NCBI RefSeq assembly: GCF_904846625.1
Contig: NZ_CAJHBL010000004.1
Span: 124,001 to 188,000, forward strand
DNA: 64,000 nt
Origin: Psychrobacter sp. JCM 18900
GTDB lineage: Bacteria; Pseudomonadota; Gammaproteobacteria; Pseudomonadales; Moraxellaceae
Direction of reading: 5' to 3'
Both the position numbers and the translations under genes were made by a program. Position 1 is the stretch's first letter. Each line of letters starts with the position of its first letter. Under the pieces are notes generated by a model. It saw only the letters and a program-made list of their open reading frames with translations. It had not been told where the DNA came from and made no database searches. This document shows positions 52,984-61,196 of the stretch, piece after piece.

Positions 52984-54198
52984 ATGAGCATTCAATTAGT
53001 ATTAAACGAAAATCGTAAACACGGTGTACCAGTCAAAATTTATACCTCGGATGTTGAGCAAGGTGCGATGCAGCAGTTACGCAATTTAGCCCAGCTAGAG
53101 TTTGTACATTCACACATTGCAGTGATGCCCGATGTGCACGTTGGCAAAGGCGCTACAGTTGGTAGCGTGATACCGACCAAGTCAGCCATCATTCCTGCCG
53201 CAGTTGGGGTAGACATTGGCTGCGGTATGAACGCCGTGCGCTTATCCCTAACCGCAAGTGATCTGCCTGATAGCTTAAGGTCGTTACGCTTGGTAGTGGA
53301 GCAACAAGTGCCTGTGGGTTTCAATATGCATAAGCAAATCCAAGCCAAAAATTCAACGCTTGATCCACTAGGTAAACGCCTAAAACCGATTACTGATAAA
53401 CACCCAGGTTTACTCAAAATGCTTAAAGGTTTTGAGCGTACGTGGGCAAAGCAGTTGGGTACATTGGGCGGTGGTAATCACTTTATTGAGCTGTGCTTGG
53501 ATGAAAACAGTGATGTCTGGGTAATGCTGCATTCTGGCAGTCGCGGCATCGGTAATTGTATCGGTCGCTATTTCATTAACCTTGCCAAAAAAGAGCGTCA
53601 ATCGCGCTTTGGTCATGTGCCAGATCGAGATTTGTCTTACTTTGCTGAAGGGTCTGATAGCTTTGCCGATTATGTCGAAGCAGTAGGCTGGGCGCAGGAC
53701 TACGCGTTAGAGAACCGCCGCGAGATGATGCGTCTCGTCATTAAGTCATTACAGTCGCCACAAGCGGGATTACCACGGTTTCAGCTGACCAAAGAAGCCA
53801 TCAATTGTCATCATAACTATGTCAATGAAGAGGTACATTTCGGTGAGCAAGTCTATGTGACGCGTAAAGGCGCGATCAGTGCTTATGCAGGTGAGCTTGG
53901 TATTATTCCAGGCTCTATGGGCGCAAAGTCTTTTATCGTACGTGGTCTAGGCGCGGCAGAGTCGTTTTGTTCTTGCTCACATGGGGCAGGACGACAGATG
54001 AGCCGTGGTAAAGCTATGCGAGCGTTCACTATCGATGAGCTAAAAGCGCAGACGGATGGCGTCGAGTGTCGCAAAGATAAAGGCGTCATCGATGAGATAC
54101 CCGGCGCTTATAAAGACATCGATGAAGTGATGGCCAATCAAACGGATTTGGTTGAGGTGGTGCATACGCTTAAGCAGGTCATGTGTATTAAAGGCTAA
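52984..54198 (+). CDS. rtcB: RNA-splicing ligase RtcB
   Basis: 404 residues. RtcB motifs are visible: PDVHVGKGATVGSVIP, AAVGVDIGCGMNAVRL (metal Asp and Cys), GGGNHFIEL, MLHSGSRGIGN, CHHNYVNEEVHFG, and the guanylylated His in CSHGAGRQMSRGKA. It ligates 2',3'-cyclic phosphate RNA ends to 5'-OH ends with GTP. No rtcA or rtcR is nearby. It is slightly shorter than archaeal forms but standard for bacterial RtcB. No clear Shine-Dalgarno is seen before the ATG. Confidence 0.95.
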   Translation: MSIQLVLNENRKHGVPVKIYTSDVEQGAMQQLRNLAQLEFVHSHIAVMPDVHVGKGATVGSVIPTKSAIIPAAVGVDIGCGMNAVRLSLTASDLPDSLRSLRLVVEQQVPVGFNMHKQIQAKNSTLDPLGKRLKPITDKHPGLLKMLKGFERTWAKQLGTLGGGNHFIELCLDENSDVWVMLHSGSRGIGNCIGRYFINLAKKERQSRFGHVPDRDLSYFAEGSDSFADYVEAVGWAQDYALENRREMMRLVIKSLQSPQAGLPRFQLTKEAINCHHNYVNEEVHFGEQVYVTRKGAISAYAGELGIIPGSMGAKSFIVRGLGAAESFCSCSHGAGRQMSRGKAMRAFTIDELKAQTDGVECRKDKGVIDEIPGAYKDIDEVMANQTDLVEVVHTLKQVMCIKG

Positions 54199-56180: not shown

Positions 56181-56527
56181 AAGGATAAGTCCATGATTGA
56201 CCAAAAATATAGCGGAGTAGCCGATTAACAGGTGGCGTATTTTATCACAACCCTGTGCCAATGTGAAAAATTAGCACGAGCGATGAGGTATCAATATGAT
56301 AAATAATTCATAGCAGTATCAATTATTTACTGGCGTTCATATTACTATTCATAAAAACTGCGGCTCGTTATCACTTCTATGTTACACCGTGCTGTCCTAT
56401 TTATTAACAAAAGGTAAAGGAGATAGTTGAAAGCACAATGAGTATAGTATGATGATTGCTATACCCTTGGCGGTACTTAGCGAACCGTTATTCACATATT
56501 TGTAGAGATATCATAAAGAGAGTCAGT

Positions 56528-58660
56528 ATGACAAAGTTGCGTGTTGCGCATAGCATCAAGGATGAAGAGTCTATCAGTCAAAAACACGCGTCAAAGCGAA
56601 TCACAGTAGGTACGCTACGGTTGAGCGCGTTGAGCGTGGCAACAGCGGTAAGTGCACTTGGTGTGTCACAAGTCGCTTGTGCCGAGTTGACGTGGGGCGA
56701 TGAGGAAAGCTACCAACAAGAAAGTAACTATCAACAAGATTATCAGCAAGACAGTAGTATCGACTCATTTATGGCAGCCGCTATCGCCGCAGACCGCGGT
56801 GATGTGAGTGCGCTCTATAACTATGAGCAAGTCATGAGCGGCGGCTTGTTTGCGATGTATCCGACCTATTGGCGTATGAATCTAGATCTCAATTCACAGA
56901 GTTCAGCGGCGGTCTCGCAGTTTGTGCGTCAGTATCCAGACACAGTGATGGCTGAGAAATTGGTTGCGGATTTTGCGGAGACCAAGGCAGGATCGAATGA
57001 CTACGCCTCTGTCAGACAGGTAGCCAATTTGATTACCAATGCGGATGCCAGTGAGCGCTGTGCGGTTGCGCTTGGGTTTAATAATGGCGGTGACACCATG
57101 CGTGCTATGGCAGCCAAATCTGATGTGTGGCTGACCACCAAAAAGCAACCAGCATTGTGCGATCAGCTAGCGATGGAGATGAACAACAACGCGCTAATTA
57201 GTAATCAAGATCGTGCGGCTCGTCTCAAGCGTATGCTACGTAAAGGCAAGACTGGTGATATTATGGCATTGTCCTCACGTCTTGGTACGCCAATTGCTTA
57301 TTCGGCGCTCAGTGAAATTCAGCTAAATCCGTCTTCTTTCTTTAGCCGTTTTGGTCGTGAGCCTGCTAGCCAAACCAATCAATACCTATATATGTACGCA
57401 ATCGGCCGTATGGCTGACAAGTCTTATCGTGAGGCGGCGCTACAGTTAGATTTTGATATCAAACAAGACAATCAGCGCGCGGTCAGATTGTTGAATGACG
57501 AAACCCGACGCTATGCTTATCGTACGCTTGGCGTACAGCGTATGAACCACAACACTGACGATGGCTTTAACGCTGAAGCAGTGGATTGGTTCCGCAACAG
57601 TTTGGACAATGATTTTAATTTTGAAGAAGCTGAAGATTACGCTATGGCGGCGATTCGCTTCGGTCGTTGGGATGACGTGGTAGAAGCTATCTCAAAAATG
57701 GATGGCGAAACGCAAAAAGAAGCCCAGTGGCAGTATTGGCTAGCTCGTGCGTATGAGCAGTCAAGCGATAGTAGCAAGCGCAATACGTCTAAAAAAATGT
57801 ATCAAAACCTAGCAAAAAGTAATGACTATTACGGTCTAATGGCAAAAGATAAAATAGGGCAGCGTTTTGATGCTAGCCGTTTAGGCGGTAGTAATTTGCC
57901 TAATGTCAGTACCGCTGACCGCGCGCGCGTCATGCAAGATGCCAACTTTGCCCGTGCGTTTGCACTGTACAACTCTGAAGCTAGTCGTGCTTATGCCAAC
58001 CGTGAGTGGAACTGGGCTGTAAAGCAAGCTCGTGACAATCGTGATGACAATTTGATTATTGCCGCTGCTCGTCAAGCCTATGACATGGGCTGGCTCGATC
58101 GAGCGATTTATGCGGTTGATAATACTGATAGAGTGGATAGCTTAGCACTTTCGCATCCGATGCCGCATCAAAGCGCAGTCGTACGTTATAGTGAGGCAGC
58201 AGGTATTGATCCAGCATGGGCGTACGGTATTATGCGTCAAGAGAGTCGCTTTGTGACTTCAGCACGCTCAAACGTGGGTGCGAGTGGACTGATGCAAGTT
58301 ATGCCTGATACTGCAAAATATATCGCTCGTAACCTAGGCGAGACGTATAGTGCGAGCCGTACTAACAGCGGTGATACCAATATCCGCTATGGTACGTGGT
58401 ATATGGGTGATATCTTGGGCAAACTCAATTATCAACCAGTATTGGCAACCGCAGGCTATAACGCTGGTCCTAATAATGCCAAACGTTGGCAGCCAGTTTA
58501 TGGTTCACTTGCCGCAGATCAGTATGTAGAGTCGATTGCATTTCCTGAGACACGTAATTATGTCAAACACGTAATGGAAAACGCCACTATTTATAGCAGT
58601 CTATTGGGTCGTGGTCAGCCGATTACTCAGCGTATGGGTACGGTGCCAGCTGGATTTTAA
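56528..58660 (+). CDS. slt: Soluble lytic murein transglycosylase (Slt-like)
   Basis: 710 residues. An N-terminal hydrophobic segment (LRLSALSVATAVSALGVSQVACAEL) acts as a signal peptide. A long helical superhelix (about 75-530) follows and the SLT catalytic domain is C-terminal: MRQESRF with the catalytic Glu near residue 570, GASGLMQVMPDTA, and AGYNAGPNNAKRW. It cleaves peptidoglycan to anhydro-muropeptides in the periplasm. The ATG at 56528 is preferred over TTG at 56456. A Gln/Tyr-rich stretch (YQQESNYQQDYQQD) follows the signal. Confidence 0.93.
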   Translation: MTKLRVAHSIKDEESISQKHASKRITVGTLRLSALSVATAVSALGVSQVACAELTWGDEESYQQESNYQQDYQQDSSIDSFMAAAIAADRGDVSALYNYEQVMSGGLFAMYPTYWRMNLDLNSQSSAAVSQFVRQYPDTVMAEKLVADFAETKAGSNDYASVRQVANLITNADASERCAVALGFNNGGDTMRAMAAKSDVWLTTKKQPALCDQLAMEMNNNALISNQDRAARLKRMLRKGKTGDIMALSSRLGTPIAYSALSEIQLNPSSFFSRFGREPASQTNQYLYMYAIGRMADKSYREAALQLDFDIKQDNQRAVRLLNDETRRYAYRTLGVQRMNHNTDDGFNAEAVDWFRNSLDNDFNFEEAEDYAMAAIRFGRWDDVVEAISKMDGETQKEAQWQYWLARAYEQSSDSSKRNTSKKMYQNLAKSNDYYGLMAKDKIGQRFDASRLGGSNLPNVSTADRARVMQDANFARAFALYNSEASRAYANREWNWAVKQARDNRDDNLIIAAARQAYDMGWLDRAIYAVDNTDRVDSLALSHPMPHQSAVVRYSEAAGIDPAWAYGIMRQESRFVTSARSNVGASGLMQVMPDTAKYIARNLGETYSASRTNSGDTNIRYGTWYMGDILGKLNYQPVLATAGYNAGPNNAKRWQPVYGSLAADQYVESIAFPETRNYVKHVMENATIYSSLLGRGQPITQRMGTVPAGF

Positions 58661-59026
58661 TCACTGAACTGGTATTTGATAAACCACTAATGATTTATTG
58701 TTAGTGGTTTATTTTTATCTGCTAATTTGCTTTGCTAATTGTCAATTGATCAACTCTGATTTGCCAAAGTAGCACTCATCTGACTAAGGTAAATTTCACG
58801 GCCGTTATCCTTCAGTGCTTTATCAACATTTATCGAGCTTCCTGACGATGTCGTCAACGTTTACGTTTTTGCTATAGATTAAAAAAAACGTTTTGTTACC
58901 ATTGCCTTAATGGGAAACCCTATTTTTCAGTCTTGTTCTTAGGTCAATGCGTGTTTTATGTATCGCGTCTAATGATTTAAGTTATAGCCTATGTCTTATC
59001 ATTGCTAACTAACTGCCTTCAGTCCT
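58661..59026. other. Gap after slt
   Basis: About 365 bases, with a terminator at 58681-58715. Nothing else was recognised; the next gene has its promoter somewhere here. Confidence 0.5.
58681..58716 (+). terminator. Terminator of slt
   Basis: The 10-bp stem aaaccactaa/ttagtggttt, ten-base loop, then a T-rich tract. Confidence 0.85.
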
Positions 59027-59836
59027 ATGATCAAAAAATATTTTAGTCTGTCTACGTCGCCAAAAACCAAATATTCGTTATCTAATCGGATATGCTTTTT
59101 ATCGAAGGCAAATACAAAGACAGATACAAACGCAAGCAACAAGGCTGCTAACTCTATGATGCGATTGCGTGCAGATTTGGCTAGCAAACACAGTGTAGGT
59201 AGTATTAAAGCAACGATGAGCTTCGGCGCTTTACTGCTTATACAAGGTGTTGTACTGCTACCAGCACAGGCGGCTAACACGGTTAAGACTGGTCAGCGCG
59301 TATTGATGATTGAGATGACCCCAGCATTATGTAATATGCAGCCAACGCGGGCACGTATGCGTCAGTGTTTAGAAGGATACTCGTTAACCGTATCTGGTCT
59401 AGATATGGGATATGGCGAACGATGCGGTCGTGGTAGTGAGCCACGCCTTACCCCGCTACAACTAAAAGTCGTCAACCGCATCATGCCTGACACAACGGTA
59501 CGTAGCCAAACGTGGCAACGTTATGGAGCTTGTAGTCCGCTTAGCGCCAGCAGTTACTTTCGACAGATTACTAACTATGCAGGTGGATTAAAACTACCGA
59601 ACGAGTTAAATACGGGTAATAGTTATACCGTTTCCAAATCACGATTTATCAGTCAAATGACCCGTCTCAATAGTGGTATGTCTTCCAATAGCGTGGACCT
59701 CATCTGTCAAGAAGGTAGCCGTCGCCAATCGATACTTACTGATATACATGTGTGTTATGAAGGTAGTGACTTTGGTACTTGTCATGACGTTGTAGACAGC
59801 TGTGGCAGTAAATTTATCATTTCAGGTGGACGATAG
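59027..59836 (+). CDS. RNase T2-like secreted protein lacking catalytic residues
   Basis: 269 residues from the first ATG. A signal peptide lies inside (MSFGALLLIQGVVLLPAQA, 64-82), so translation may really begin at Met44/45 or Met64. The mature part follows the RNase T2 order: VLMIEMTPALC, then LTVSGLDM where the family has HGLWP, RLTPLQLKVVNRIMPD, QTWQRYGAC where the family has HEWxKHGxC, SPLSASSYFRQ, and a closing TDIHVCYEG. All catalytic positions differ (His to Ser123, His to Gln161, Glu to Thr162, His to Tyr166), while eight cysteines remain. I read it as an inactive RNase T2 relative, perhaps an RNA-binding or structural protein. Confidence 0.72.
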   Translation: MIKKYFSLSTSPKTKYSLSNRICFLSKANTKTDTNASNKAANSMMRLRADLASKHSVGSIKATMSFGALLLIQGVVLLPAQAANTVKTGQRVLMIEMTPALCNMQPTRARMRQCLEGYSLTVSGLDMGYGERCGRGSEPRLTPLQLKVVNRIMPDTTVRSQTWQRYGACSPLSASSYFRQITNYAGGLKLPNELNTGNSYTVSKSRFISQMTRLNSGMSSNSVDLICQEGSRRQSILTDIHVCYEGSDFGTCHDVVDSCGSKFIISGGR

Positions 59837-60206: not shown

Positions 60207-61196
60207 ATGTCAATGAAACAGCCTTTACGTGTTGCCGTCACTGGTGCCGCTGGTAATATCAGCTACGCGATGCTATTTCGTATTGCATCTGGCGAGATGC
60301 TAGGTAAAGATCAGCCAGTTATTTTGCAATTACTTGAAATTACGCCAGCTCTTGACGCCCTAAAGGGTGTGGTCATGGAACTAGAAGACTGTGCATTCCC
60401 ATTGTTGGCTGGTATCGTCCAAACTGACGATGCTAATGTCGCATTCAAAGATATCGATTATGCTTTACTGGTTGGTGCACGTCCTCGTGGCCCAGGTATG
60501 GAGCGTAAAGATTTGCTAGAAGCCAACGCTGCGATCTTCTCAGCACAAGGTAAAGCATTGAACGAAGTCGCTAGCCGTGATGTAAAAGTATTGGTAGTCG
60601 GTAACCCTGCCAACACGAACGCACTTATCGCTCAGCGCAATGCGCCAGATCTTGATCCACGCAACTTCACTGCAATGACTCGTCTAGACCATAACCGTGC
60701 TATGGCACAGTTAGCTGGCAAGACTGACAGCACTGTAAATGACGTGAAAAAAATGATCATCTGGGGCAACCATTCGTCAACTCAGTATCCAGATCTAACT
60801 ACTTGTACAGTAAACGGCAAGCCTGCGCTAGATTTAGTTGATCGCGAATGGTACGAAGCGACTTATATCCCAGAAGTACAACAGCGCGGTGCTGCAATTA
60901 TCAAAGCTCGCGGTGCATCATCTGCGGCTTCTGCTGCCAACGCTGCTATCGCACACATGCGTACGTGGGCACTAGGTACTGATGAGAACGATTGGGTATC
61001 TATGGGCGTTTACTCAAACGGTGAATACGGTATTGCTGAAGGTTTGATCTACTCATTCCCATGCACATGCACTAACGGCGACTGGTCTATCGTAGACGGC
61101 GTTGATGTATCATCAGACTTTTCGAAAGAGAAAATGGCTGCCACTGAGCAAGAACTTAGTGAAGAGCGTGATGCAGTAGCACATTTACTACCGTAA
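60207..61196 (+). CDS. mdh: Malate dehydrogenase
   Basis: 329 residues. The NAD-binding motif is [21 protein letters not shown] near the start, followed by [39 protein letters not shown] (substrate Arg and Asp) and the catalytic His in [12 protein letters not shown]. This is the type-1, roughly 330-residue MDH of proteobacteria such as Acinetobacter and Neisseria. It oxidises malate to oxaloacetate with NAD in the TCA cycle. TAGGGAG precedes the ATG. Confidence 0.97.

Follow-up and report, generated by a model that had tools for sequence, protein, structure and literature searches.

The window, a 64,000-nucleotide stretch from Psychrobacter sp. JCM 18900, has a gene order that we take to be miaB, slt, rnaA, mdh, the neighbours being named from general knowledge of such genes. 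The parts of the rnaA locus are collected in Table 1. Given the hairpin that follows slt, rnaA may be transcribed from its own promoter. A few kilobases upstream, at positions 52984–54198, is an ORF that we presume to resemble an RtcB-type RNA ligase. By inspection of hydropathy, the rnaA product appears to carry a signal peptide, with a hydrophobic stretch at about residues 61–78 and a candidate cleavage site between AQA and A. Mature residue numbers (G36, Q64, R98, R31 and so on) are counted from A82 of the ORF, and the actual cleavage site probably lies one residue further on. The whole ORF encodes nine cysteines, eight of them in the mature part and the ninth in the leader. The roughly 55 residues before the hydrophobic stretch (window positions 59027–59206) differ in length between species, with a MIKKYF-like start common to most of 30 leader rows; the leader may be a long one, or the start codon may be mis-set. 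Because the segment varies in length and evolves loosely, the start codon given here is provisional.

Table 1. Features of the rnaA locus, in window coordinates
Feature	Position	Strand	Basis and remarks
rnaA orthologue, RNase T2-fold pseudoenzyme (predicted), apparently secreted	59027–59836	+	269 aa; ORF, NF050015 match, predicted fold
Leader: some 55 residues of loose conservation, followed by a hydrophobic stretch that resembles a signal peptide and ends LLPAQA	59027–59269	+	dN/dS 0.575
Mature T2-fold domain (predicted), 188 residues modelled	59270–59833	+	Model and fold search; dN/dS 0.016
Gene for slt-like lytic transglycosylase, upstream neighbour	56456–58660	+	ORF list, name presumed; synteny marker
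Terminator-like hairpin 3′ of slt	58678–58713	+	Weak: 1 found against 1.2 expected in shuffles
Arg31, invariant in RnaA	59360–59362	+	135/135 RnaA rows against 3/31 active-type; 16/31 are gaps, so a weak comparison
Gly36, invariant in RnaA	59375–59377	+	135/135 RnaA rows against 4/31 active-type
Ser replacing catalytic His46; CAS I reads SGLDM	59393–59395	+	Alignment: His absent in 90/90 same-genus rows
Gln64, invariant in RnaA	59459–59461	+	135/135 RnaA rows against 3/31 active-type
CAS II reads QTWQRYGAC: H104Q, E105T, K108R, H109Y; W, G and C retained	59507–59533	+	Alignment
Arg98, invariant in RnaA	59561–59563	+	135/135 RnaA rows against 1/31 active-type
Malate dehydrogenase gene (mdh), downstream neighbour	60207–61196	+	ORF list, name presumed; synteny marker

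The first-pass annotation had read the protein as an RNase T2 fold and proposed a profile search as a check. A match to Pfam Ribonuclease_T2 (PF00445) was indeed obtained, although it is weak and falls under the cut-off (E 5.7e-4, 20.5 bits against 26). The NCBIfam profile NF050015, "ribonuclease T2 family protein" (RNaseT2Fam), is matched over nearly its full length by residues 61–267 (E 2.3e-55), but at 187 bits against a cut-off of 250; that cut-off is exceeded in 40 of 149 family genomes, all of genus g15 (Acinetobacter; other genera of the family are likewise given by g numbers). Weak matches to Nucleoporin_C (Pfam) and glycocin F (NCBIfam) were taken as chance. By phmmer, the window protein matched no PDB sequence up to E 10. 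An AlphaFold2 model of the mature part, built from an alignment of the window protein with 67 of 80 fetched relatives, was of fair quality, with a pLDDT of 82 and a pTM of 0.81. A Foldseek search of the PDB with this model gave 15 matches at E ≤ 0.001, all 15 of them T2-fold proteins, with Escherichia coli RNase I (2pqy) at the top (E 1.8e-7; TM 0.74, normalised to the length of the query). Also among the T2-fold matches is 1jy5, an RNase-related protein of Calystegia that we take to be inactive. The model thus predicts an RNase T2 fold, in agreement with the earlier reading. With E. coli RNase I and other T2 enzymes of PF00445 the window protein has the fold, the cysteine framework and, by prediction, secretion in common; it differs from the PF00445 enzymes in its sub-cut-off Pfam score and in the replacement of all five catalytic positions.

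These positions are His46, His104, Glu105, Lys108 and His109, in what we take to be the numbering of fungal RNase Rh. The window protein aligns with S, Q, T, R and Y at them (H46S, H104Q, E105T, K108R, H109Y), so the loss of every catalytic position and the retention of eight cysteines in the mature part are as the first-pass annotation had described. It had also asked whether related genomes keep the same substitutions. Within the genus they are steady: the 90 same-genus rows have Ser (84), Ala (5) or Glu (1) at His46, Tyr (84), His (5) or Phe (1) at His109, and Gln throughout at His104. Acinetobacter shares the Gln (29 of 32 rows) but otherwise has other residues, with eight types at His46 and Val or Ile at His109 in 31 of 32; at Lys108, ten types occur across the two genera. 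Several Acinetobacter rows read TGLMPE and VQLWKSVGGC where the window protein has SGLDM and QTWQRYGAC. Not one of the five catalytic residues is left in 85 of the 90 same-genus rows or in any of the 32 Acinetobacter rows, the latter drawn from a scan of family genomes and lacking both histidines without exception. Both histidines are likewise absent from 80 of 80 loci in the best 80 of 203 relatives found by a contig scan (72 Acinetobacter, 3 Alkanindiges and 5 metagenome-assembled genomes, with none from the window's genus), a set that overlaps the 32 rows. As a control, 18 of 274 class genomes yielded T2 genes, which were joined to the alignment at low identity. All 18 keep His46, Lys108 and His109; 13 have His at the first CAS II position, and 16 keep Glu105. 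On this alignment, the loss of both histidines appears unusual among relatives.

The cysteine framework is nearly invariant: in the 135 RnaA rows, seven of the eight cysteine columns are complete and the eighth is filled in 133. Because active T2 enzymes usually have eight cysteines as well, the number is not by itself a pointer to redox sensing. Two residues before Cys162 lies His160 (window positions 59747–59749), a histidine in 84 of the 90 same-genus rows and in 1 of the 32 Acinetobacter rows.

The gene is the orthologue of rnaA of Acinetobacter baumannii (A1S_3026, ACX60_RS02390), since the two have the slt-rnaA-mdh order and a clade in common. Counting presence within the flank, irrespective of orientation, slt and mdh each occur within 1.5 kb in 29 of 30 same-genus loci and together in 28, with one locus lacking slt and another mdh. 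Both genes were found in 30 of 30 Acinetobacter loci of one set and, with 4-kb flanks, in 72 of 72 of a second. Acinetobacter baylyi also has rnaA (locus L190). A single metagenome-assembled genome has a gene, presumably nitroreductase-like, between rnaA and mdh (L327:2469-3320). A maximum-likelihood tree was computed from 55 rows, comprising 16 of the 90 same-genus rows, 13 of the 32 Acinetobacter rows and all 26 others. It groups the window's genus with g7 and Acinetobacter in a single clade (100/99), and the RnaA clade stands apart from active T2 with supports of 100/99 and 100/100, in an analysis for which the program warned of long branches. The window protein is 33 to 44 percent identical to 67 aligned relatives, mostly Acinetobacter, and has a longer leader than A. 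baumannii RnaA.

RnaA has been described before. In a 2014 study (PMC3904860), A. baumannii RnaA is reported to lack the two CAS histidines, and RNase activity could not be detected with the purified protein (data not shown). Its authors saw no obvious secretory motif, and a transposon mutant attached poorly to surfaces and expressed fewer pilus genes. The same paper cites a Chromobacterium T2 protein that has one histidine of the pair, and Tetrahymena, in which three of eight T2 proteins have neither; by description, these and the Calystegia relative have the loss of catalytic histidines in common with RnaA. A 2023 paper (PMC10249906) reports a signal peptide for A. baumannii RnaA and states that both Acinetobacter and Psychrobacter orthologues are without the catalytic histidines. 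A. baumannii RnaA matches the window protein in locus order, in clade (by way of the fetched Acinetobacter relatives), in catalytic loss and in its eight cysteines; the signal peptide reported for it would correspond to the one predicted here. The first-pass annotation knew of no bacterial pseudo-RNase T2, and on this point it is contradicted by both papers: the protein and its catalytic loss are already known in outline, and a claim of novelty does not hold. Beyond the papers cited here, open-licence literature carrying the name or locus tag yielded no title about the protein; the 2014 paper is cited by PMC7997844.

That the window protein is still a ribonuclease, working through other residues or a cofactor, is highly improbable. 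The 2014 authors could not exclude assay limits or a missing cofactor (PMC3904860), and His160 is widespread in the genus, where His109 also survives in 5 of 90 rows. However, His160 is a histidine in only one Acinetobacter row, no other mature histidine reaches half of the 90 same-genus rows, and the A. baumannii protein was inactive in vitro.

Turning to distribution, 90 same-genus genomes carry the gene out of 100, a number that counts the window's own genome. NF050015 is matched in 101 of 149 family genomes and in 13 of 293 order genomes, of which 8 lie within the family and 5 carry distant genes of active type. Among same-genus rows, and using only pairs with dS of 0.1 to 1.0 (239 of 4005 for the mature part and 552 for the leader; the pairs are non-independent and the two sets differ), the median dN/dS is 0.016 for the mature part (interquartile range 0 to 0.029) and 0.575 for the leader. 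The mature part is under very strong purifying selection. Presence in 90 of 100 genomes and this low dN/dS argue that the ORF did not arise by chance, and rnaA is not a decaying gene. Selection for a non-catalytic role, which the first-pass annotation had suggested, is thus upheld despite the catalytic loss; of its interpretation as a whole, the fold, the lost active site, the cysteines and this selection stand, and the undescribed family falls, so that it is supported in part.

Ten of the 100 genomes are without rnaA. In nine of these (L244-L252), slt and mdh are separated by a gap of 235 to 526 bases with no rnaA match between them; the tenth genome is incomplete, and slt is absent from the stretch searched. 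An active T2 enzyme alongside the pseudoenzyme, another point raised at the outset, was not found in the window genome, nor was any second T2 gene; PF00445 gave no match (missing rnaA itself) and NF050015 gave one, a search that a very decayed copy could escape. One family genome, G109, does have such a pair, a decayed RnaA and another T2 gene whose HGLWP and HEWFKHGTC motifs are intact (L206 / L320, G109:C1:2342115-2342690). Duplication followed by decay of one copy is unsupported as a general route: PF00445 is matched in 30 family genomes, and in 29 of them the match coincides with that of NF050015, G109 alone having it elsewhere.

What RnaA does is suggested by published genetics. In PMC10249906, RnaA is placed upstream of the BfmRS envelope sensor and linked to DsbA. 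When A. baumannii rnaA or dsbA was deleted, the share of BfmR that is phosphorylated rose about three-fold and capsule increased by roughly half, both effects depending on BfmRS, and rnaA overexpression brought capsule below wild type unless BfmS was inactive; a sensor of disulfide defects is one interpretation offered there. Of the roles that the first-pass annotation had suggested (RNA binding, protein inhibition or a structural one), these genetics, by indicating input into the BfmRS two-component system, would be compatible with one that involves protein binding. Components of such a pathway are found in the window genome. BfmR, queried as 238 residues, has as its first PDB matches the entries named BfmR/RstA, 5hm6 and 5e3j; BfmS has an RstB-like profile, adjoins bfmR and is the reciprocal best match of the Acinetobacter gene; and there are four DsbA-family matches. 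We favour, with a probability of about 0.6, the reading that the window protein is RnaA, a periplasmic pseudoenzyme derived from an active RNase T2. In the window genome it would be exported to the periplasm, where the DsbA system would pair its cysteines, and the BfmS sensor would be kept quiet, directly or indirectly, by the quantity of RnaA that is correctly folded. Failure of oxidative folding would then remove RnaA and turn the envelope response on. Most simply, RnaA would report to BfmRS whether disulfide formation works. Against this reading stand the ten same-genus genomes that manage without rnaA and the disagreement between the 2014 and 2023 papers over an export signal in the A. baumannii protein.

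Co-occurrence proved uninformative as a test of direct contact between RnaA and BfmS. BfmS is found in 144 of 149 family genomes (100 of the 101 with an NF050015 match and 44 of the 48 without), and since it is just as present without RnaA, the distribution lends no support to direct contact. BfmS is retained in the five rnaA-less same-genus genomes that were checked, of ten. In these five, no release of its sensor domain from constraint was seen: from pairs among 16 same-genus rows, of which 11 have rnaA and 5 do not, the sensor-to-kinase distance ratio is 2.94 for rnaA-less against rnaA-bearing rows, 2.65 among bearing rows and 1.78 among rnaA-less rows. The rows come from 17 of 22 loci kept, five (two g10, two g9, one g7) having been dropped by a motif or length filter. 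Faster evolution of the sensor domain after loss of rnaA is thus not seen in the ratios. Because BfmS is kept and its sensor domain is not faster in genomes without rnaA, RnaA is disfavoured as the sole BfmS ligand; it may be one input to BfmS.

The same maintained constraint would suit a passive RnaA, a structural or scaffold client of DsbA whose loss disturbs the envelope and is sensed by BfmS via something else. The width of the mutant phenotypes, from adherence and pilus genes (PMC3904860) and capsule (PMC10249906) to an rnaA mutation listed with others that appeared under colistin selection (PMC5088200), also suits a passive client. The BfmS-dependent drop of capsule below wild type on overexpression would not be expected of such a client, and we consider this explanation rather unlikely, though not negligible.

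A second alternative is that RnaA is a periplasmic RNA- or nucleotide-binding protein, its old cleft binding without cutting, with an indirect effect on BfmRS. The predicted T2 fold is in keeping with this, as are the basic mature protein (median pI 9.28 over 90 same-genus rows and 9.07 over 32 Acinetobacter rows) and the replaced positions, whose steadiness within the genus, and in Acinetobacter for the Gln at His104, indicates that the old active site is not drifting freely. Between genera, however, the His46, Lys108 and His109 sites differ as described above, and the charge does not single RnaA out, because the median pI is lower in g11, g5 and g12 (7.7, 8.4 and 8.2) and equally high (9.28) in the active g13. 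We regard RNA binding as unlikely.

The family also retains stages between an active T2 gene and rnaA. Genus g13 keeps His46, Lys108 and His109 in 7 of 7 rows, and His104 and Glu105 in 2 of 7. Genus g5 (3 of its 4 matching genomes) keeps His46 and Lys108 with Tyr at His109, while g12 (1 of 1) has Gln at His46 and keeps Glu105 and His109. The other family genera have neither histidine, bar the His109 of the five same-genus rows noted above; in g8, Glu105 is still present. The tree puts g13 between the distant active genes and all others; of these, g5 is the first to diverge and g12, with a support of only 85/75, the second, and the remaining genera sit on one strong branch (100/100). Because the root is a midpoint root and the program warned of long branches coming together, the branching order is uncertain; at face value, the tree implies that the order in which the two histidines were lost differed between lineages.

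Gene neighbourhoods were compared by eye. What we take to be an NADH-oxidoreductase-like gene and the gene of a protein with a CKYH-type cysteine motif adjoin the T2 gene in g5 (3 of 3 genomes), in g12 (1 of 1) and in one g13 genome of two (L322-L326, L331); both g13 genomes, and one of g5, have a presumed macro-domain-like gene next to the T2 gene. In g1, g7, g8, g9, g11 and g15, the T2 or rnaA gene lies beside slt. The neighbours common to g5, g12 and g13 suggest that the active-type and half-decayed genes probably occupy one ancestral place.

Six residues, R31, G36, P62, Q64, R98 and Y163, are identical across all decayed rows (131 of 131) and all intermediate ones (4 of 4). Of the 31 rows of active type, 18 come from the class and 13 from family and order; these have the six residues in 3, 4, 8, 3, 1 and 7 cases, respectively, with 16 gaps at R31. 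G36, Q64 and R98 thus appear, by sequence, to be clear markers of RnaA, whereas R31, P62 and Y163 weigh less because P62 and Y163 occur in 8 and 7 active-type rows and R31 is gapped in 16. As candidate early gains, T40 and R70 were dropped because they are missing from the four intermediate rows, and E35 and Q83 because they are not in all decayed rows. G36, Q64 and R98 are already present where His46 (g5) or His109 (g12) remains. From the four intermediate rows and the tree order, we infer that the RnaA residues were gained before catalysis was lost. Neither the decay series nor the RnaA-only residues turned up among the passages and titles consulted in a survey of the open-licence literature on rnaA and its locus tag.

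Our tentative account, which we hold at somewhat less than even odds, is that the Moraxellaceae T2 protein took on a second, non-catalytic job while still cutting RNA. G36, Q64 and R98, perhaps with R31, P62 and Y163, would have been fixed first, the histidines would then have been lost separately in at least two lineages, and these residues would mark the surface for BfmRS signalling. Signalling pseudoenzymes are familiar from eukaryotes. Here, an active-type relative and half-decayed intermediates survive within one family, so that one can ask whether the new function preceded the loss of the old. G36, Q64, R98 and the others are the residues to test for input to BfmRS, a point that PMC10249906 leaves open.
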